A stretch of DNA of 64,000 bases, taken from Candidatus Cloacimonadota bacterium. Its GTDB lineage: Bacteria; Cloacimonadota; Cloacimonadia; Cloacimonadales; TCS61. The stretch's first letter is position 1, and the number at the start of each line of letters is the position of its first letter. The position numbers and the translations under genes were made by a program. Where the stretch lies: NCBI GenBank assembly GCA_030445745.1, contig JASUTE010000003.1, positions 110,321-174,320 of the forward strand. The letters are read 5' to 3'. The notes below the pieces were generated by a model, which saw only the letters and a program-made list of their open reading frames with translations, was not told the DNA's origin and made no database searches. Below are positions 54,717 to 63,175 of this stretch, in pieces.

Positions 54717-55711
54717 AAATATTTTTCCCGGTACAACTCTGCTATTTGTACAGCATTCAAGGCTGCTCCTTTGCGTAAGTTGTTACCCACAATCCACATA
54801 TTAAAACTATTTTCATTGAATAAATCTGGTCTTATCCTGCCCACTAAGATATCATCTGTTTTTTCGCTATCTAAGGCTGTGGGAAATTGATTTTTACTAA
54901 GGTCATCCACCACTTGAACTCCTGGAAATTTAGCTAAAGCAGTTTTGAACTGGGCCAGTGTAATCTTTTCTTTTGTTTCAACATACACAGATTCGCTATG
55001 ACCGTAAAATACTGGAACACGCACAGCTGTAGCCGTAACCTTTATCTTATGGTCTCCTAAAATTTTATGAGTTTCCCATACTAATTTCATCTCTTCCCGG
55101 CTAAAGCCATTTGCTAAAAATTTATCTACTTTTGGAATAACATTAAATGCAATCTGCTTTTCATAGACTTTTGGCGCTATCTCTTTTCCTTGCTGCCATT
55201 TTTCTATCTGGTCTTTCAACTCTTGCATAGCTTTAAAACCAGAACCAGAAACTGCCTGATATGTGCTTACAACAAGCTGTTTGATTCCCACTAAATCATG
55301 AATAGGCTTCATTGCTAGCAACAGCTGAATTGTAGAGCAATTTGGATTTGCAATAATGCCAGGTTTTATTTCTGAAGGATTTATTTCTGGTATCACCAAC
55401 GGAATATCGTTTTGATAACGAAAAGCACTGCTGTTATCGATAGCTGTACCACCGGCTTTTATTATTTGCGGACAAATCTGCTTGCTAACTTCTGCGCCAG
55501 CACTAAGCAAAACCAGGTTTAAGCCTTGCCAGCAACCGGGCTGGATAGCTTCCACTTCCAATTGTTTATCTTTGAATTTTATATTTTCCCCAATTGATTT
55601 TTGGGAAGCAAAAACCTTAACCTTTTTTGTGGGAAATTTACGCTCTTCTAATATGGCTAACATTTGCTGTCCCACAGCACCTGTAGCTCCCACTACAGCT
55701 AAATTAATCAT
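54713..55711 (-). CDS. asd: aspartate-semialdehyde dehydrogenase
   Basis: 332 residues. Reduces aspartyl phosphate to aspartate semialdehyde with NADPH. NADP motif LAVVGATGAVGQQMLAIL at residues 4-21; catalytic cysteine in IIANPNCSTIQLLLAM near 118-133; catalytic His in a GHSESVYVET context near 239. The start is the ATG at 55711 after AAGGAAAG. A frame starting 15 codons further upstream crosses a terminator hairpin and is rejected. Upstream neighbour is an aminotransferase, downstream lysC. Confidence 0.95.
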   Translation of the reverse strand: MINLAVVGATGAVGQQMLAILEERKFPTKKVKVFASQKSIGENIKFKDKQLEVEAIQPGCWQGLNLVLLSAGAEVSKQICPQIIKAGGTAIDNSSAFRYQNDIPLVIPEINPSEIKPGIIANPNCSTIQLLLAMKPIHDLVGIKQLVVSTYQAVSGSGFKAMQELKDQIEKWQQGKEIAPKVYEKQIAFNVIPKVDKFLANGFSREEMKLVWETHKILGDHKIKVTATAVRVPVFYGHSESVYVETKEKITLAQFKTALAKFPGVQVVDDLSKNQFPTALDSEKTDDILVGRIRPDLFNENSFNMWIVGNNLRKGAALNAVQIAELYREKYL

Positions 55712-55721
55712 ATCTTTCCTT

Positions 55722-55754
55722 AAAAAAATGGGAGAAGCCCACTCGGACTTCTCC
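55722..55754 (-). terminator. hairpin terminator immediately before asd
   Basis: On the minus strand: stem GGAGAAG / CTTCTCC with a 10-nt loop, then CA and seven T (55722-55728). It follows the stop of the upstream aminotransferase by 19 nt. The asd ribosome site starts right at the end of the T-run and the ATG is 11 nt further, leaving no room for a separate promoter, so the hairpin may act as an attenuator. Confidence 0.82.
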
Positions 55755-55772
55755 ACACATTATTTGGAATAA

Positions 55773-56984
55773 TTACTTACCCATCTCTTCTTTAATAACA
55801 GCTGCCAAGCGTTTCACACCTTCTACATTCTGTTCTTTGGTAGCGTAAGAGAAATTTATCCGCATGGTATTCTTGCCACTGCCATCACAATGGAAAACTT
55901 GCCCAATTACAAAAGCAACTTTCTTTTCGATCGCTTTCAAAAATAGCTTCTCTGAATCCATGCCTTCTGGAAGAGTTAAAAATAGGAATAAACCTCCTTC
56001 GGGTCTGGTCCAACTAACTCCTTCCGGCATGTATTTTTCAAAAGCTTCCATCATAACTTCTTTTTTCTGGCGGTAGTTTTCTATTGTTTTCTGCAAGTTT
56101 TTAGCGTAGTAGCCCTTTTCGATATACTTTATTGCAATTTTCTGAACAAATGGACTGGTACACAGATCGGTAGATTGCTTAGCTTTAACCATTTGATCGA
56201 TAACATCGGGGTGTGCTACTGCCCATCCTAAACGGAACCCTGGCACAAATATCTTGGAAAAAGTTCCCAAGGTGATAACCTGTCCTGTGTTATCTAAGGC
56301 ATACAATGTTTTTTGAGGTTTACCTTCGAAACGAAGTTCTTTGTAAGGGCTGTCCTCTAAAATCAGAATATCGTGTTTGTGAGCAATATCGATTATCTCT
56401 TTTCTTCTGAATTCTGGCATAGTTACACCAGCTGGATTTTGGAAATCTGGAATTACATAGATAAACTTAGGTTTTTGACCTTTTTTCTCCAATTCCTGTA
56501 ACGTTTCTTCCAGTTTATCAGCGCGCATGCCGTTTTCATCGAACTTAATACCAACCGGTTTAGCGCCATAGGCGTTGAAGGCACCTAAACCACCTAAATA
56601 GGAAGGTAATCCGCAAATTAGAGTATCACCACGATCGATAAATATTTTACTGACAAGATCTAACCCTTGCTGAGAAGCAGTTGTTATCATTACATTATCT
56701 ACAGTAATATCAAAACCTTGTTTACGATAGTCTTCCACTATTAACTCGCGCAAGCGTGTATCACCTTCGGTTGCACCGTATTGCAAAGCACTCTTAGCTT
56801 CATTTTGTAATACATCTTGCACACATTCTTGTAACTCTTTCACGGGAAAAGTTTCCGGGGCAGGTAAACCGCCGGCAAAAGAGATGATTTCCGGATCATT
56901 AGTAAGCTTTAACAGCTCACGTATGGCCGATCTCTTCATACCCTTAATACTTGTGGATAGCACACTTTGTAAATTGCTAATCAT
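55773..56984 (-). CDS. PLP-dependent aminotransferase, LysN/MocR-type class I
   Basis: 403 residues from the ATG at 56984, preceded by GGAGG at 5 nt. Landmarks: ISFAGGLPAPETFPVKELQE near 34-53, YGATEGDTRLRELI near 73-86, TTASQQGLDLVSKIFIDRGD near 104-123, VIPDFQNPAGVTMP near 178-191, ILEDSPYKELRF near 213, and the Schiff-base lysine in TLGTFSKIFVPGFRLGWAVA near 241-260. This branch includes 2-aminoadipate (LysN) and branched-chain or aromatic aminotransferases. Exact substrate unknown; proximity to asd and lysC hints at amino-acid synthesis, but a terminator separates them. Confidence 0.88.
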   Translation of the reverse strand: MISNLQSVLSTSIKGMKRSAIRELLKLTNDPEIISFAGGLPAPETFPVKELQECVQDVLQNEAKSALQYGATEGDTRLRELIVEDYRKQGFDITVDNVMITTASQQGLDLVSKIFIDRGDTLICGLPSYLGGLGAFNAYGAKPVGIKFDENGMRADKLEETLQELEKKGQKPKFIYVIPDFQNPAGVTMPEFRRKEIIDIAHKHDILILEDSPYKELRFEGKPQKTLYALDNTGQVITLGTFSKIFVPGFRLGWAVAHPDVIDQMVKAKQSTDLCTSPFVQKIAIKYIEKGYYAKNLQKTIENYRQKKEVMMEAFEKYMPEGVSWTRPEGGLFLFLTLPEGMDSEKLFLKAIEKKVAFVIGQVFHCDGSGKNTMRINFSYATKEQNVEGVKRLAAVIKEEMGK

Positions 56985-57033
56985 TTTTTCCTCCATTTTT
57001 TTTATTTATGTATTCTTACAGTGATTTATTAAA

Positions 57034-57391
57034 CTAATTTCCTAATCTTTTGATTTCTTCTTTTATTTCTTTTATTACTTCAGGGTTTTTAAAGTCAAGT
57101 CCAAAAAAATTTGTAAATTCCTCATAAAGGATTTAAGCACTTTTCATTTCTAGTTTTTATTAAATAGGATATATTTCTATAAATCTTGTTTCTCAAAACT
57201 ATTAAATCCTCGCTTTCATTATCAATGACTATTTTTTTGTAAAAATTATTTTCAATTCTTTCTTGAAATACTAATGCACTTAAGGAGTAATTATTTAGTA
57301 TAAAAACTTTGGCTTCATAATGAGAATAGTTTTTTTGTAATAGCTTTCTGAAAAGATTATCAAAAGTAAATCGGTCATTAATCCATTTCAT
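57034..57391 (-). pseudogene. frameshifted small gene downstream of the restriction endonuclease-like gene
   Basis: The first frame gives 89 residues (MKWINDRFTFDNLF ... LNPL) and stops at 57122. In another frame the sequence continues coherently as YEEFTNFFGLDFKNPEVIKE and IKEEIKRLGN to a TAG at 57034-57036. Joining the two gives about 119 residues, and the break falls within a few bases of 57125. The start lies at the stop of the upstream gene, so the three genes 59193-57034 form one unit. No recognised family: charged, helical tail. A frameshift in the genome or an assembly error both explain it. Confidence 0.5.
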
Positions 57392-57392
57392 A

Positions 57393-58481
57393 TTAATTAG
57401 TGAATTTAAAACTCAAGTTCATTCTGTTTTTCTTTAAAGTCAAATCCATACTAAAGATATTGTTGACTTCCACACCCAATGGGGTTAAAATAATTTTATC
57501 ATATTCAGTTGTCGACTTAATTCTATCAATAAGTCCTAATTCTTCACAATAATTGCTGCACCAGTTCAAAAACTCTTTCATAGTTCGATGATTATATGAA
57601 ACTTTGAAAAGTCCACGTGCTATTTCTAACTTGTCATTGTCAAAAGGAATTGATTTAGGTAACCAATTTCCATCGGTTACTTCAACGAATCTCATAAACC
57701 AATAAATATTTGTTTTATGTATTTTATCTTCCCAATTCCCATTTGTAAGTATTTTCAATAGAAGTCGCTTTTGTTCATTCGTTAAATCAATTGTTGCAAC
57801 ATTGTCAGCGTGATTTATGTATGGATTAAAATTATTTATGTATTCGATACCATTGTTCGTCAAAAAGAATTTATTTTCTTTTTCTTCAAACATTTCGAAA
57901 TCCAACGCAAGTCTTTTGTAACAGTTAAAATTAGTTCTGCCTGTAAATGACGAATTAATATCTTCAAAACTTAACGTATTTTTTCCAAAGTCTTTAAATG
58001 GCTTAAGAATTTTATTCAACCAACGTAGATAACAAATTGTATAATTTTTAGGATTTGGTAAAGCTAAGCCAACATTAAGACTTAATCGATGAACGGTTTG
58101 TGAATAAATCTGTTTTATCGAATTGAGGGAATATTGTCGAATTATAATTTCATGTTCTCTTCCGAAATTTTCAATTTGAATTCTATTTGAGTATGGTGTT
58201 TCATCTGCATAAAGAATACAATAGCTTGTATCATCTGTAAATCGAACATTTTTATAATTCAGAATCTGATTAAAACAGTAATTTAATTTATTTGAAGTGT
58301 TTAACACAGTTTCCAATTCAACAATTAATTGCTGCTGGTTGGTATTTTCCAATATAAAATCTATTCGCCCAAAATCTGTTGATATTTCTTGACCAACTTT
58401 TCTCGAAAATGGAAATTGTAAACGTTTTTCAAGATAATTTTCATTATTTAATAGTGTCCATTGAACTAATGATTCTTTCAT
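57393..58481 (-). CDS. putative type II restriction endonuclease, partner of the adjacent methyltransferase
   Basis: 362 residues from the ATG 4 nt after the methyltransferase stop (MKESLVQWTLLNNENYLEKR). Near residues 39-58 is GRIDFILENTNQQQLIVELE: an Asp in a strand, then E-L-E about 15 residues on, the shape of a PD-(D/E)xK nuclease core but with Glu where Lys is usual, as in BamHI-type E-x-E. A winged-helix-like region may follow (about 185-280; FEMFEEKENKFFLTNNGIEY). Position behind a DNA methyltransferase and AT-richness fit a restriction enzyme; specificity unknown, and a DNA-binding accessory protein is an alternative. Confidence 0.55.
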   Translation of the reverse strand: MKESLVQWTLLNNENYLEKRLQFPFSRKVGQEISTDFGRIDFILENTNQQQLIVELETVLNTSNKLNYCFNQILNYKNVRFTDDTSYCILYADETPYSNRIQIENFGREHEIIIRQYSLNSIKQIYSQTVHRLSLNVGLALPNPKNYTICYLRWLNKILKPFKDFGKNTLSFEDINSSFTGRTNFNCYKRLALDFEMFEEKENKFFLTNNGIEYINNFNPYINHADNVATIDLTNEQKRLLLKILTNGNWEDKIHKTNIYWFMRFVEVTDGNWLPKSIPFDNDKLEIARGLFKVSYNHRTMKEFLNWCSNYCEELGLIDRIKSTTEYDKIILTPLGVEVNNIFSMDLTLKKNRMNLSFKFTN

Positions 58482-58485
58482 AATT

Positions 58486-59193
58486 TTAAGCAGCAAGAGT
58501 TGTGGTTCCACTACCAAGAAAAGGATCAACTATAGTTTCACCAACAAATGTAAACATTTTAATAAGCCTCTTAGGTAATTCTTCCGGAAACATCGCCACA
58601 TGTTTATCTTGTCTAACACCTCCAAATTTCCAATGCCCTGAAAAATATTCCTTCCATTCTTCTTTTGTTAGTTTTGAATCAAGTTTATCTTGCTTATTGA
58701 ATTTAACAGGTTTCCCTAGTTTCTTAAATAACAAAATAAACTCGTAATCAATAGAAATTATTCCATTACGTGGATAAGGATAACTCCCCATAATGGAAGC
58801 GCCACCTGTTGTATTGGTAGTAGTTTTCTTTTGCCAAATAATGGCTCCCATATAATCAAAACCAATTGTTTCGCAAAATTTTATTATTTCAGTTCTTATG
58901 GGTATTACTTTATATCTGCCATAATAAATCGATCTGGCAAACTGATCTCCAATGTTGATGCAAAGTCTACACCCATTTTGTAAAATTCTATAACTTTCTT
59001 TCCAAACTAAATTCAAATTATTTATATAATCTTCGTATGAATCGTTAAACCCCAATTGATTATCGTTTCCGTAGTCCTTCAATTGCCAATAAGGTGGGGA
59101 AGTTACAACAAGATGGACACTATTATCTTCTATCTCGTCCATCTTCCTAGAATCTCCAAAAATAATTTTGTGCTTTGTTTCTCTAATTTCCAT
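58486..59193 (-). CDS. beta-class DNA (N4-cytosine or N6-adenine) methyltransferase, C-terminally short
   Basis: 235 residues. Catalytic motif IV TSPPYW (about 31-36) near the N-terminus and the AdoMet motif I VDPFLGSGTTTLAA at the very end, the circular order of beta-class DNA methyltransferases. Between them lie NGCRLCINIGDQFARSIYYG, GASIMGSYPYPRNGIISIDY and HVAMFPEELPKRLIKMF, typical of this group. Relatives continue past motif I with a GRNSIGYEI-like strand that supplies the acidic AdoMet ligand; here the frame stops right after LAA. It may be inactive or truncated. Starts 23 nt after the hflX stop. Confidence 0.82.
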   Translation of the reverse strand: MEIRETKHKIIFGDSRKMDEIEDNSVHLVVTSPPYWQLKDYGNDNQLGFNDSYEDYINNLNLVWKESYRILQNGCRLCINIGDQFARSIYYGRYKVIPIRTEIIKFCETIGFDYMGAIIWQKKTTTNTTGGASIMGSYPYPRNGIISIDYEFILLFKKLGKPVKFNKQDKLDSKLTKEEWKEYFSGHWKFGGVRQDKHVAMFPEELPKRLIKMFTFVGETIVDPFLGSGTTTLAA

Positions 59194-59215
59194 TTTTTCT
59201 CTCTTAACGCAAAAC

Positions 59216-60532
59216 TCATTCCTCTTTATTTATGTATTTCATCAACCTAAAATTCTCTATCTGATTTTTTATATTGGGGAATAATTGTCGAGAAATTTTT
59301 ACTTTCATCTTCATACTATTAGCTTCAGAATCATATTTTTCCGAAATCACTTCAGCGTGCTCGTGTAAAAAATTTATCAAACTCTGCATTTGGATAGGAA
59401 TATCTAATTCTCGGAAAAGTTTATGTTTTTCTAAAAAATAATCTATCTTCTGCTGTAGCTGTTCTAAACCTTGCCCACTACGAGCTGAAATAAACACCGA
59501 ATCTGGATATTTGGTTTTTAACTCCTTTTTTTGGAATTTAAAGTGCTTTCCTCCGACTAAATCGCATTTATTAAACACCATTAGAATATTTTTATCCCCT
59601 ATCTGCAATTCTTGTAGCACCTTCTCTACTGCCTCTATCATCTCTGCTAGATATGGATGCGAAACATCGACCACATGCAGAAGTAAATCTGCATCCAAAA
59701 CATCGAGTAAAGTAGCATGGAAAGAGGAAACCAGTCGATGTGGTAAATTGCGAATGAAGCCTATGGTATCGGTTAATAACACTTTTTCCGAGCTGGTAGA
59801 AATAGCCCTGGTTTTGGAATCGAGTGTAGCGAAAAGTTTATCAGCTACATAGCGTTTCTGTTGTGTAAGTTTCTTAAACAAAGTAGATTTACCAGCATTG
59901 GTGTATCCAACTAACGAAATAGAGGTTAATTTCTGGCGCTGTTTACGTTTATTGGCAGTGATATTTTCTATATTTTCCAGTTTTTTCTTCAACAGAGTAG
60001 TTTTTTTTTGTATTTCGCGTCTATCTACCTCTATCTGAGTTTCACCAGGTCCGCGAAAACCAATTCCGCCCTGGATACGAGAGAGATGTTTCCAACGATT
60101 TTTAAGTTTAGTATAACTATATTCCAATTGTGCCAACTCTACCTGCAATTTAGCTTGCTTGGTGCGAGCATGTTTGGCAAATATATCTAAAATAAGCTCG
60201 GTTCTATCTACTACATTACAACCACTGACATCGGAAATATTACGCTGTTGGGAAGGAGAAAGATTGTTGTTGAAAATAAGGGTGTTCACCTTTTTTGGGC
60301 GAGCTTTGTTCTTTATCTGTTGTAGTTTACCGCTGCCAACATATGTAGCAGTTTTGGGCTTATCCAATCTTTGTACTATAGTATCCATCACCTTAACTCC
60401 AGCTGTGTTTGCCAGCTGATGTAGTTCCTGCATATATTCCTGAAAATGGGAATCAGTCTCCTGCGCGATTTGAACTCCCACTAAAAAAGCCCGCTCTTGC
60501 TTGAATTTTTCTATTATGATTGAACGCTTCAT
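59216..60532 (-). CDS. hflX: GTPase HflX
   Basis: 438 residues. N-terminal HflX domain (about 1-185; VQIAQETDSHFQEYMQELHQ; SPSQQRNISDVSGCNVVDRT), then a GTPase domain with G1 LVGYTNAGKSTLFKKL near 208, G3 LTDTIGFI near 255, G4 NKCD near 326 and G5 SARSG near 350, and a C-terminal subdomain. Ribosome-binding, rescues stalled or heat-damaged 70S ribosomes. Precedes the restriction-modification unit and directly follows a SpoVG-like gene (0 nt). Confidence 0.95.
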   Translation of the reverse strand: MKRSIIIEKFKQERAFLVGVQIAQETDSHFQEYMQELHQLANTAGVKVMDTIVQRLDKPKTATYVGSGKLQQIKNKARPKKVNTLIFNNNLSPSQQRNISDVSGCNVVDRTELILDIFAKHARTKQAKLQVELAQLEYSYTKLKNRWKHLSRIQGGIGFRGPGETQIEVDRREIQKKTTLLKKKLENIENITANKRKQRQKLTSISLVGYTNAGKSTLFKKLTQQKRYVADKLFATLDSKTRAISTSSEKVLLTDTIGFIRNLPHRLVSSFHATLLDVLDADLLLHVVDVSHPYLAEMIEAVEKVLQELQIGDKNILMVFNKCDLVGGKHFKFQKKELKTKYPDSVFISARSGQGLEQLQQKIDYFLEKHKLFRELDIPIQMQSLINFLHEHAEVISEKYDSEANSMKMKVKISRQLFPNIKNQIENFRLMKYINKEE

Positions 60533-60820
60533 TTACGATTCATAGACCAGGACTTTTTTGTTCCTTTTGCGCCATTCCAAATACTCTTCCTTCAACTCCA
60601 TTTTCCACAATGTTTCGCGATTCTCATCTGCAAAAGTTATCACATCCAAATAATGCATTCTACCATCTTTACCTTTGAAATTTTTTTGAGGCATTTCTAC
60701 TTCCAATTTACCATTTCTGTTCAAAATAGTTATCTCATTTATAAAAATTCCTGGTTGAATTTCCACAACCACTCTTGCTTCGACTATTCCCGAACTTACA
60801 TCTCTGAATTTTGCGTTCAT
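60533..60820 (-). CDS. SpoVG-like protein
   Basis: 95 residues, starting at the ATG at 60820, 5 nt after GGAG-AGTAGG. The layout AEVVVEI-type beta strands (AKFRDVSSGIVEARVVVEIQ), IFINEITILNRNGKLEVEMP and then LDVITFADENRETLWKMELK followed by a C-terminal helix is that of SpoVG-family nucleic-acid-binding proteins (about 90 residues, with the conserved GKLEVEMPQK core). Assigned by overall pattern, with moderate certainty. SpoVG in other bacteria binds DNA or RNA and affects division and envelope genes. Sits between pfk and hflX. Confidence 0.5.
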   Translation of the reverse strand: MNAKFRDVSSGIVEARVVVEIQPGIFINEITILNRNGKLEVEMPQKNFKGKDGRMHYLDVITFADENRETLWKMELKEEYLEWRKRNKKVLVYES

Positions 60821-60834
60821 CCTACTCTCCACTT

Positions 60835-62058
60835 TTATTTTCCATAAGGATACATCTCTACTTCACCTTGACCGATCTCTTTCAGCATCTGCCGAAACCA
60901 TTCTTGGGTAGTATCGAAAGGACGTCCACCTTTGATGCGTTCGAATTCTATACAACGCATCTCTCCATCGTAGTCTTCATCCTGTCCTACTACTCCGCTT
61001 TCACCATTCAAGCCAAATTGCACTGCTTGATCACAAGTTTTAAAAATTAGTTCTAAATCTTTTTTATTGGGAGCTGCGGAGCGAGCAAAATAACCACTTT
61101 TCAGCACCAAAGTTTTTTTGGCATCCAAAACTTTAGCAAACCTTTTCCCATACCATTCACCCACATTTATATCATCCAGGCGTACATGCCCAAAGGCATC
61201 GCGTTTTACCTCTTCACCATCAGCTTCCATTTGTGCCACAATACGCTCTACTCCAGCACCTTCGCTAATAAAAATATTTACACAATCATTCTTATCCATC
61301 AGTTTTAGTAATCTTGCCACTTCTTCATCGAAATCGTAATGTAACTCCGGCAGGTAAACTGCATCCACATCCCATTTTTCTCTTGTAAGTAAAAATTCAG
61401 GTAGGAACTTACGCTTGGCCAATCTTTTGCGGTATTCATAAGCAGAGGTAGCTGTCAGCCAACCGCAATTGCGTCCCATAACTTCGTGGATAAGCAGTTG
61501 ACGTGGACTGGTAGTGTTTTCGTTCACCATATTTTCGAAAAATATCGCTGTTTGTTCGGCAGCTGTCCAGGCACCCAGGGTTTGTTTAATAGGAATTATA
61601 TCGTTATCAATAGTTTTGGGAAGTCCTATTACTGTAAGTTCGTAGCCATTTTCTTCCAAATAAGCAGAAAGATTAGCTGCAGTGGTGTTGGTGTCGTCGC
61701 CCCCGATGGTGTGTAAGATAGTAATTCCATCTTTACGCAAGCGCTCAGCGGCTACATGTAGGGGATTTTGTCCTGGTTTCACCAAGCCTTTTTTCACACA
61801 ATCTTTTACATTAGAAAGTTTTACACGACTATTGCCCAATACACTACCGCCATATTCATATAAAATTTCTATCTTTTCACGAATTAAATTGCTTATTTCG
61901 ATGCTTTTCCCTACCAAAAGTCCCTGATAACCGTTTAAATAACCCACAATTTCCGCTTCGGGTACATGTTCTGAATATTTTTTGATAAGCCTTCCTACAC
62001 ATGCAGATAAACAGGGGGCTAAACCACCCGCTGTTAGTATGCCTATCCTATGTTTCAT
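60835..62058 (-). CDS. pfp: pyrophosphate-type 6-phosphofructokinase
   Basis: 407 residues. Phosphofructokinase fold: GILTAGGLAPCLSACVGRLI at residues 5-24; HTIGGDDTNTTAANLSAYLE near 112-131 with Asp after the first GGD (GGDD); LPKTIDNDIIPIKQTLGAWT near 142-161 with Lys before TIDND. Asp and Lys at these two positions are the marks of PPi-dependent enzymes; ATP enzymes have Gly at both. So it most likely uses PPi, acting reversibly in glycolysis and gluconeogenesis. Pairs with a second phosphofructokinase, 19 nt upstream on the same strand. Confidence 0.88.
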   Translation of the reverse strand: MKHRIGILTAGGLAPCLSACVGRLIKKYSEHVPEAEIVGYLNGYQGLLVGKSIEISNLIREKIEILYEYGGSVLGNSRVKLSNVKDCVKKGLVKPGQNPLHVAAERLRKDGITILHTIGGDDTNTTAANLSAYLEENGYELTVIGLPKTIDNDIIPIKQTLGAWTAAEQTAIFFENMVNENTTSPRQLLIHEVMGRNCGWLTATSAYEYRKRLAKRKFLPEFLLTREKWDVDAVYLPELHYDFDEEVARLLKLMDKNDCVNIFISEGAGVERIVAQMEADGEEVKRDAFGHVRLDDINVGEWYGKRFAKVLDAKKTLVLKSGYFARSAAPNKKDLELIFKTCDQAVQFGLNGESGVVGQDEDYDGEMRCIEFERIKGGRPFDTTQEWFRQMLKEIGQGEVEMYPYGK

Positions 62059-62077
62059 AAATTATTCCTCCAAAAAT

Positions 62078-63175
62078 TTATTCTGCAAATTGTATTCCTA
62101 CTCCGCGTGCAGTTTCCATAAGGGGTGAATTTAATTGCACCAAATTTGGTTCGGCGATAGCCTGTTTTATGGGAACAGCAATAAGATCGGGATGGCGATA
62201 TGCCACCATTTGCCCGTACTGTTTGTTTAAGACCATCTCGAAAGCTTTCACACCCATCTGAGTAGCTAAAATTCTATCGAAAGCACTGGGAATGCCCCCT
62301 CTTTGTAGGTGACCTAAAATAGTAGTACGAATATCAGCATGAATTCCTTCCTCTTGCAACTGATTTTCCAGGGCTATGCCTGCCCCGCCTAATTTTATCT
62401 TTTCATGCCCAAATTCATTGCTCCGCTTATAAGTCATTTTTCCACCTTTAGGACGAGCACCTTCGGCAATAACTATATTGGCAAAACCACTATCACCTGT
62501 GGTGCGTTCATTTACGGTTTTTACTATCTTTTTTATATCATAGGGAATTTCTGGAATTAAACAAATCTCGGCGCCGCCTGCTATAGCAGCATGCAAAGCT
62601 ATCCAGCCCGCTTCGCGTCCCATAACTTCCAATATCATCACTCGGTGGTGACTGAAAGCTGTAGTAACCAATTTATCTACGGCATCTGTGGCAATCTCTA
62701 CTGCTGTTTGGAAACCAAAGGTGTAGTCGGTGGCTGAAAGATCATTATCAATTGTTTTGGGAACTCCGATTATGTTACAGCCTTTTTCGAAAAGTTTTTG
62801 CGAAATTTTCTGAGAGCCATCTCCGCCAATATTTATCACTGCCTCTATTCCTAATTCGTTCATGCGGTTTATCAGCTCATCCGAACGATCTTTAGCTATC
62901 ATTTTGCCATTTTTTTGCTTTACTGGCCAGGCAAAAGGACCACCCTTGTTAGTTGTACCCAAAATTGTTCCACCACGCACATGGATGCCCGCTATTTTAT
63001 CGTTTGTTAACTCCATTAGTTCGATGGGATCTGTTAAAATTCCATTAAAAGCATTTATACTGCCCACAATTTCCCATTCAGGTGTTTGCTGGGCACGTTT
63101 TACAATTGCTCTTATTACTGCATTCAAACCGGGGCAATCTCCACCGCCGGTAACTATCATACATCGTTTTCTCAT
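62078..63175 (-). CDS. pfkA: 6-phosphofructokinase, mixed-signature (likely ATP-type)
   Basis: 365 residues. MIVTGGGDCPGLNAVIRAIV at 6-25, then INIGGDGSQKISQKLFEKGC near 114-133 with Gly at the nucleotide-selecting position, and IIGVPKTIDNDLSATDYTFG near 134-153 with Lys at the second. Gly/Lys is known from ATP-dependent enzymes of trypanosomatid type, whereas Asp/Lys is the PPi type. So ATP use is the more likely reading but not certain. MGREAGWIALHAAIAGGAE near 190 is the substrate loop. First gene of the minus-strand run. Confidence 0.85.
   Translation of the reverse strand: MRKRCMIVTGGGDCPGLNAVIRAIVKRAQQTPEWEIVGSINAFNGILTDPIELMELTNDKIAGIHVRGGTILGTTNKGGPFAWPVKQKNGKMIAKDRSDELINRMNELGIEAVINIGGDGSQKISQKLFEKGCNIIGVPKTIDNDLSATDYTFGFQTAVEIATDAVDKLVTTAFSHHRVMILEVMGREAGWIALHAAIAGGAEICLIPEIPYDIKKIVKTVNERTTGDSGFANIVIAEGARPKGGKMTYKRSNEFGHEKIKLGGAGIALENQLQEEGIHADIRTTILGHLQRGGIPSAFDRILATQMGVKAFEMVLNKQYGQMVAYRHPDLIAVPIKQAIAEPNLVQLNSPLMETARGVGIQFAE

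Follow-up and report, generated by a model that had tools for sequence, protein, structure and literature searches.

What is the small group of genes between hflX and an aminotransferase gene, and how did it come to look the way it does? The sequence-only reading had taken it for a compact restriction-modification (RM) unit with signs of damage, either decaying or unusually split. The window, i.e., the whole stretch of 64,000 nucleotides that was analyzed, carries all genes of this site on the minus strand. hflX (59216..60532) forms the upstream border and a class I/II aminotransferase gene (55773..56996) the downstream border of a variable site. In relatives, this site holds a methyltransferase (MTase) gene followed by a restriction endonuclease (REase) gene, or an incomplete MTase gene followed by two genes that we call X and S, or no gene at all. 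As had been noticed, the region is more AT-rich than both neighbors. The GC content is 32.8% for the MTase gene, 28.1% for X, and 23.2% for the small gene, compared to 36.8% for hflX, 39.5% for the aminotransferase gene, and 37.0% for the whole window, and the kilobase 57001-58000 has the highest AT content of all 64 in the window. On the other side of hflX lie two neighboring genes (60835-63175, minus strand) that look phosphofructokinase-like by sequence and encode proteins of 407 and 365 aa.

The MTase open reading frame (58486..59193, 235 codons) ends with ...VDPFLGSGTTTLAA-TAA and therefore indeed stops right after AdoMet motif I (LGSGTTTLAA). It retains motif IV (TSPPYWQ) near residue 33 and motif I (DPFLGSGTT) near residue 224, the order IV then I of beta-class amino-methyltransferases, and matches PF01555 with an E value of 2.3e-34. 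The acidic AdoMet-binding strand and the SNase-like C-terminal half are missing, and the protein finishes at LAA. That relatives continue with this strand was borne out by the comparison with full-length homologues. The MTase of locus L002, which is 86% identical to the window's protein, reads ...LGSGTTTLAAKNLDRNSIGYEIN... and goes on to 435 aa. After TTLAA, the nearest relative has KNLDRNSIGYEIN, representing the acidic strand, and then the C-terminal SNase-like domain (PF00565, E 4.1e-06 in the L002 protein). Relatives at ∼60-86% identity have a length of ∼430-436 aa and extend ∼200 residues beyond the point at which the window's protein ends. None of the relatives spanning residues ∼8-235 terminates at LAA; their open frames comprise at least 267 aa. 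A tblastn search with a 435-aa relative against window positions 55001-61000 matched residues 1-240 only and found no trace of residues 241-435 in any frame. With the 3' half lacking from all frames, no single wrong base could account for the stop. A sequencing error behind the short MTase was therefore ruled out, the flank being the sequence of X. Judged from these comparisons, the METHYLTRANSFERASE in the window is a stump, the 5' part of an MTase gene of the MjaI type. No second close MTase was found in the window's genome.

In relatives such as L004, L005, L018, L023, L025, L026, L028, and others, the MTase gene is followed by a gene for an ∼210-aa REase of the MjaI family (PF09568; E 1.6e-47 for the L005 protein). 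MjaI cleaves CTAG. Because the partner REase belongs to this family, CTAG is the expected site of the operon, and the MTase from which the stump derives was probably CTAG-specific. CTAG occurs 89 times in the window (1-64000) compared to ∼181 occurrences expected from its trinucleotides; such under-representation is widespread among bacteria. M.MjaI has been assigned to the beta class as a 4mC MTase acting on CTAG (PMC5867850).

The REase has left very little in the window. No match to PF09568 was obtained in the window's genome; the complete 164-position domain is absent and only ∼20 C-terminal codons are left. These final ∼20 codons ahead of the aminotransferase gene, KNPEVIKEIKEEIKRLGN (57034..57096), match the C-terminus of MjaI-type REases with an alignment score that was reached in 0 of 2000 shuffles. 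Upstream of them and in another frame lies an 89-codon open reading frame (57122..57391) with 55.6% identity to residues 16-87 of S255, a 255-aa protein encoded downstream of X at locus L011. In S255, an MjaI core (residues 137-221; PF09568, E 1.5e-12) is fused to a different N-terminal part. In a fold search with S255, the MjaI core alone was well modeled, and its matches to Holliday junction resolvases (Z ∼7) are not distinctive. In the window, this core is deleted between the remnant of S and the REase tail. Hence, the supposed third gene split between two frames near 57125 turned out to be two different remnants, between which the REase core has been deleted. The original RM system was, as the sequence reads, destroyed by deletion and not by a point error. 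X was ruled out as the REase of this MTase; the operon's own REase is the MjaI-family enzyme.

The same site was found in several states among the genomes of the family. It is empty between hflX and the aminotransferase gene in 23 genomes, the REase gene adjoins the aminotransferase gene in G032 and G034, and the arrangement stump-X-S is found in G009, G023, G030, and the window. In G018 (L002, 603-2205, minus strand), the site holds an intact MTase of 435 aa next to an REase that is internally deleted to 96 aa; this MTase looks like an orphan MTase. A further deletion within such an operon was observed at L003 (1189-2196, minus strand), where a 335-aa MTase of the family is fused at its C-terminus, in the same frame, to N-terminal sequence of an MjaI REase, VGPISELIRKYSPNP, and X is absent.

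Gene X (57393..58481) is intact and encodes a protein of 362 aa. Its ATG at 58481 is separated from the MTase stop codon by 4 nt (58482..58485), as had been stated before. Searches of Pfam, NCBIfam, PADLOC, PHROGs, and PDB sequences returned chance-level matches only and gave X no name; the match to Pfam PDDEXK_9 (E 0.087) is under the family cut-off. There was no model of the DpnI families among the Pfam matches up to E 1 and no sequence match to them, no match of the X sequence to any solved structure, and no match in phages, plasmids, or viral contigs. The AlphaFold model of X has a mean pLDDT of 64.5, with values of 78-95 over most of residues 41-125 and poor values past residue ∼230. Residues 1-124 are predicted to form the alpha-beta-beta-beta-alpha-beta core of the PD-(D/E)XK superfamily, and among the matches listed EndoMS/NucS is the closest solved fold (5gke, Z 11.2, rmsd 2.3 Å over 108 aligned residues; 2vld, Foldseek E 6.5e-04). 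A PD-(D/E)XK core in the 362-residue protein, for which a profile search had been suggested, is supported by the predicted fold. X differs from NucS in having no visible N-terminal NucS domain, in having E-L-E for E-x-K, in the added winged helix, and in its location at RM loci. The predicted winged helix comprises residues 148-227 and is of the MarR/PadR type (Z 6-7.5, moderate scores for a common fold). The modeled domain order, PD-(D/E)XK and then winged helix, is that of DpnI-type enzymes; DpnI itself was not among the matches listed in the structure search, which is uninformative either way.

Of the PD-(D/E)XK signature, X retains D41 and E55, and the position of the catalytic lysine is occupied by a glutamate (E57). 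The motif E-L-E in place of E-x-K was found at residues 55-57, as read before. We do not regard it as a sign of damage, since E55-L-E57 is invariant, as are K65 and Q72, across the aligned relatives of X down to 35% identity. D41 is kept in all aligned members except the one at L098, which has a tyrosine. These two substitutions, at the lysine position in the whole family and at D41 in one member, would fit a protein that is no longer a nuclease, with the PD-(D/E)XK domain as a DNA-binding relic in a regulator or structural protein. We consider this very improbable, given that the remaining residues are preserved over such a distance and that an E-x-E motif also occurs in BamHI. Within the close clade, the dN/dS ratio of X is ∼0.11-0.16, i.e., X is under purifying selection there.

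Altogether, the searches found 12 loci with X: the window, L010-L016, L098, L099, L100, and L101. At eight of them, the gene immediately ahead of X is a stump from one and the same MTase family. The stumps differ widely in length, with 43 codons at L010, ∼47-51 at L011, L012, L013, and L016, 153 at L015, 235 in the window, and ∼273 followed by degenerate codons at L100. These lengths represent five break points, counted as distinct junctions, with the four ∼50-codon cases sharing one. At all five, the stop codon of the stump is 0-6 nt away from the start of X or overlaps it. The junctions may be independent insertions or may partly reflect later trimming of an older MTase-X pair, the tree of X being poorly resolved outside the clade of L011-L016. 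A programmed frameshift that would fuse MTase and X was dropped as unnecessary because stumps of very unequal length precede X. At L100 (1504-2863, minus strand), the family MTase is broken into two frames and followed by a degenerate X, so that both genes are dead. At L014, only REase remains were found, downstream of X. L098, L099, and L101 show no sign of RM genes. L101 is cut by the contig end and has a transporter gene upstream of X. L098 (1501-2592, plus strand) has a solitary X between leuS and serS, 7 nt behind leuS, which reads GRIYF for GRIDF and thus carries the tyrosine at the expected catalytic aspartate.

Could X simply have landed in genes that were already dead? In that case, X would have entered by illegitimate recombination after the death of the RM operon, would have been kept wherever a promoter and a ribosome binding site were already available to it, and would have a function unrelated to the MTase. 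RM decay is common here, as seen from the intact MTase with a core-deleted REase in G018 and from the MTase fused to REase remains at L003, and the X of L098 also lies close behind another gene, leuS. But 8 of 12 loci fall into a single MTase family, which only about one in ten of the genomes sampled from the window's phylum possesses. This family is one gene among thousands, and random entry into dead genes would strike many families. We therefore regard such a neutral history as unlikely, even if it deserves to be kept in mind.

The MjaI-derived core next to X allows another reading, in which X would provide the recognition part of a two-part restriction enzyme with altered specificity that needs no MTase, the core being that of S255 at L011 or of the 162-aa protein at L010. 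An REase core with most conserved residues kept adjoins X at L011, in G030, and at L010, and it is constrained (dN/dS 0.12 for L011 versus L031). X is intact, however, where the core has been deleted (window, L016) or is absent (L015, L098, L099), which makes this arrangement improbable as an explanation for X.

The age of X relative to its surroundings could be estimated in one clade. Among G009, G023, G030, and G108, the X proteins are 90-94% identical with dS values of 0.20-0.34, and dS of the shared N-terminal part of S is mostly 0.05-0.24. For the adjoining MTase stump, dS ranges from 0.67 to saturated; it is 0.93 for the REase core and, among three of these genomes, 2.3 to saturated for hflX. 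The difference between X and the stump was reversed in 0 of 1000 bootstraps for five of the six pairs and in 35 of 1000 for the sixth. Where this can be tested, the flanks are much older than X, which therefore moves as a cassette. In G108, the cassette is found at a different site, adjoining a tRNA synthetase-like gene. Behind it come the final MTase codons, from ∼388 onward, and an REase tail; the right border of the cassette shows ∼10 nt of similarity to MTase sequence. Our sequence comparisons thus identify X as a separate, intact, horizontally moving gene that is not a member of the MjaI-type operon.

A parasite of the homing type would also produce a cassette younger than its flanks: X would cleave within the MTase gene, close to codons of conserved motifs, and the cassette would spread by way of homology in the flanks when the break is repaired from a copy with X. 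The cassette has moved between genomic loci and families (L016 versus L011-L013), and it entered at conserved motif codons in several cases. On the other hand, there are five break points instead of a single conserved insertion site, solitary copies of X lie outside any MTase gene, and the associated deletions are large and kill the host gene, whereas a homing nuclease normally spares its host by means of an intron or intein. Homing is therefore quite unlikely to account for these loci.

With these observations, the initial description is partly supported: what it had observed was confirmed, what it had concluded only in part. A decaying RM system is present insofar as an MjaI-type MTase-REase operon, or its replacement, has left remnants in the form of the MTase and the small 3' gene, but X is intact. 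The idea of a compact or unusually split RM unit found no support, since X is a separate mobile gene that is solitary elsewhere and occurs repeatedly in MTase stumps. Nor does a dead MTase imply a dead nuclease, because ten further genomes have X but no intact close MTase of this type, and X is under purifying selection in the close clade.

Why should X recur in the ruins of one MTase family? The likeliest reason is incompatibility, and we see about an even chance that X is an MTase-independent, modification-dependent nuclease that is incompatible with the MjaI-type MTase, in analogy to DpnI and DpnII. The site between hflX and the aminotransferase gene would formerly have held an MjaI-type operon encoding an MTase of ∼435 aa and an REase of ∼210 aa. 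A mobile cassette consisting of X, here together with S, would then have replaced the middle of the operon, with MTase codon 235 as one limit of the exchanged part and the final ∼20 codons of the REase gene as the other. Behind the stump, X would probably be expressed from the old promoter and with translational coupling. X would most likely act as a stand-alone restriction nuclease, with the PD-(D/E)XK domain cutting and the winged helix reading DNA. If it attacks DNA bearing the mark of the MTase, as DpnI attacks that of DpnM, X could be gained only if the MTase is lost. The REase also must be lost or altered, because it would cut the unmodified host DNA. A conflict of this kind would leave behind what these loci show: X again and again where this one MTase is destroyed and, wherever an MTase stump precedes X, no N-terminal REase domain found beside it.

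The recurrence of X in remains of this MTase family, at different break points, suggests that MTase and X do not easily coexist in one cell. An intact close MTase is absent from 11 of the 12 genomes with X; the count of one in 12 compares with roughly a tenth of the sample and has no power to show exclusion. The one genome with both, G463, encodes an intact family MTase (63% identical, 436 aa) next to a shortened REase (L104, 985-2980, plus strand) and a distant, solitary X (35% identical; L099, 1148-2254, minus strand). Exclusion is therefore incomplete, at any rate among distant members. The lack of sequence matches of X to the DpnI families and to solved structures, the glutamate at the lysine position, the tyrosine at D41 in L098, and the poorly modeled C-terminal third of X also count against incompatibility.

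The DpnI cassette has a small second gene beside the nuclease gene. As with DpnI and DpnII, a single site here carries either an MTase with its REase or a solitary putative nuclease with the predicted PD-(D/E)XK-winged-helix architecture, in exchange for each other. In pneumococci, the genes for DpnI, which cuts methylated DNA, and DpnII, which cuts unmethylated DNA, share one location (PMC3573125); these alternative cassettes of Streptococcus pneumoniae have been reviewed (PMC12707154). In contrast, X sits inside an MTase stump and between REase remains, with several break points, it has no sequence match to the DpnI families, and its modification dependence is putative. Some fusions of PD-(D/E)XK and winged-helix domains, which are N6mA-dependent type IV nucleases, adjoin an MTase inactivated by a frameshift (PMC11037411). 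They have the same domain order as predicted for X, but they read Gm6ATC, whereas the MTase family at the X loci is MjaI-like with CTAG as the expected site. Moreover, the MTase at the X loci was inactivated by replacement, repeatedly in one family. The MjaI RM system itself (PF09568, CTAG) is the kind of operon from which the window's stump and REase tail derive; both genes are incomplete here, and X is no part of the system. McrBC is a GTP-dependent two-gene system, whereas X consists of one small protein whose domains are arranged differently. Homologues of mcrBC occur inserted in RM gene complexes, and McrBC kills cells that acquire an MTase (PMC2614495). X would resemble them as a candidate modification-dependent nuclease inserted in an RM operon. 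We place X provisionally, as a variant, among the modification-reading nucleases that are in conflict with MTases.

We put forward more tentatively, as a possibility with somewhat less than an even chance, that X founds a family of modification-dependent nucleases that read the mark of MjaI-type MTases (methylated CTAG) and spread by replacing the respective MTase gene, thereby turning an RM locus into its opposite. We know of no nuclease in use that reads a CTAG-type mark; if our proposal is true, X would add one. It would also provide a natural series, spanning several bacterial groups and with break points that can still be read, of a restriction nuclease displacing an incompatible MTase, and the conflict between modifying and modification-reading systems would become directly testable.
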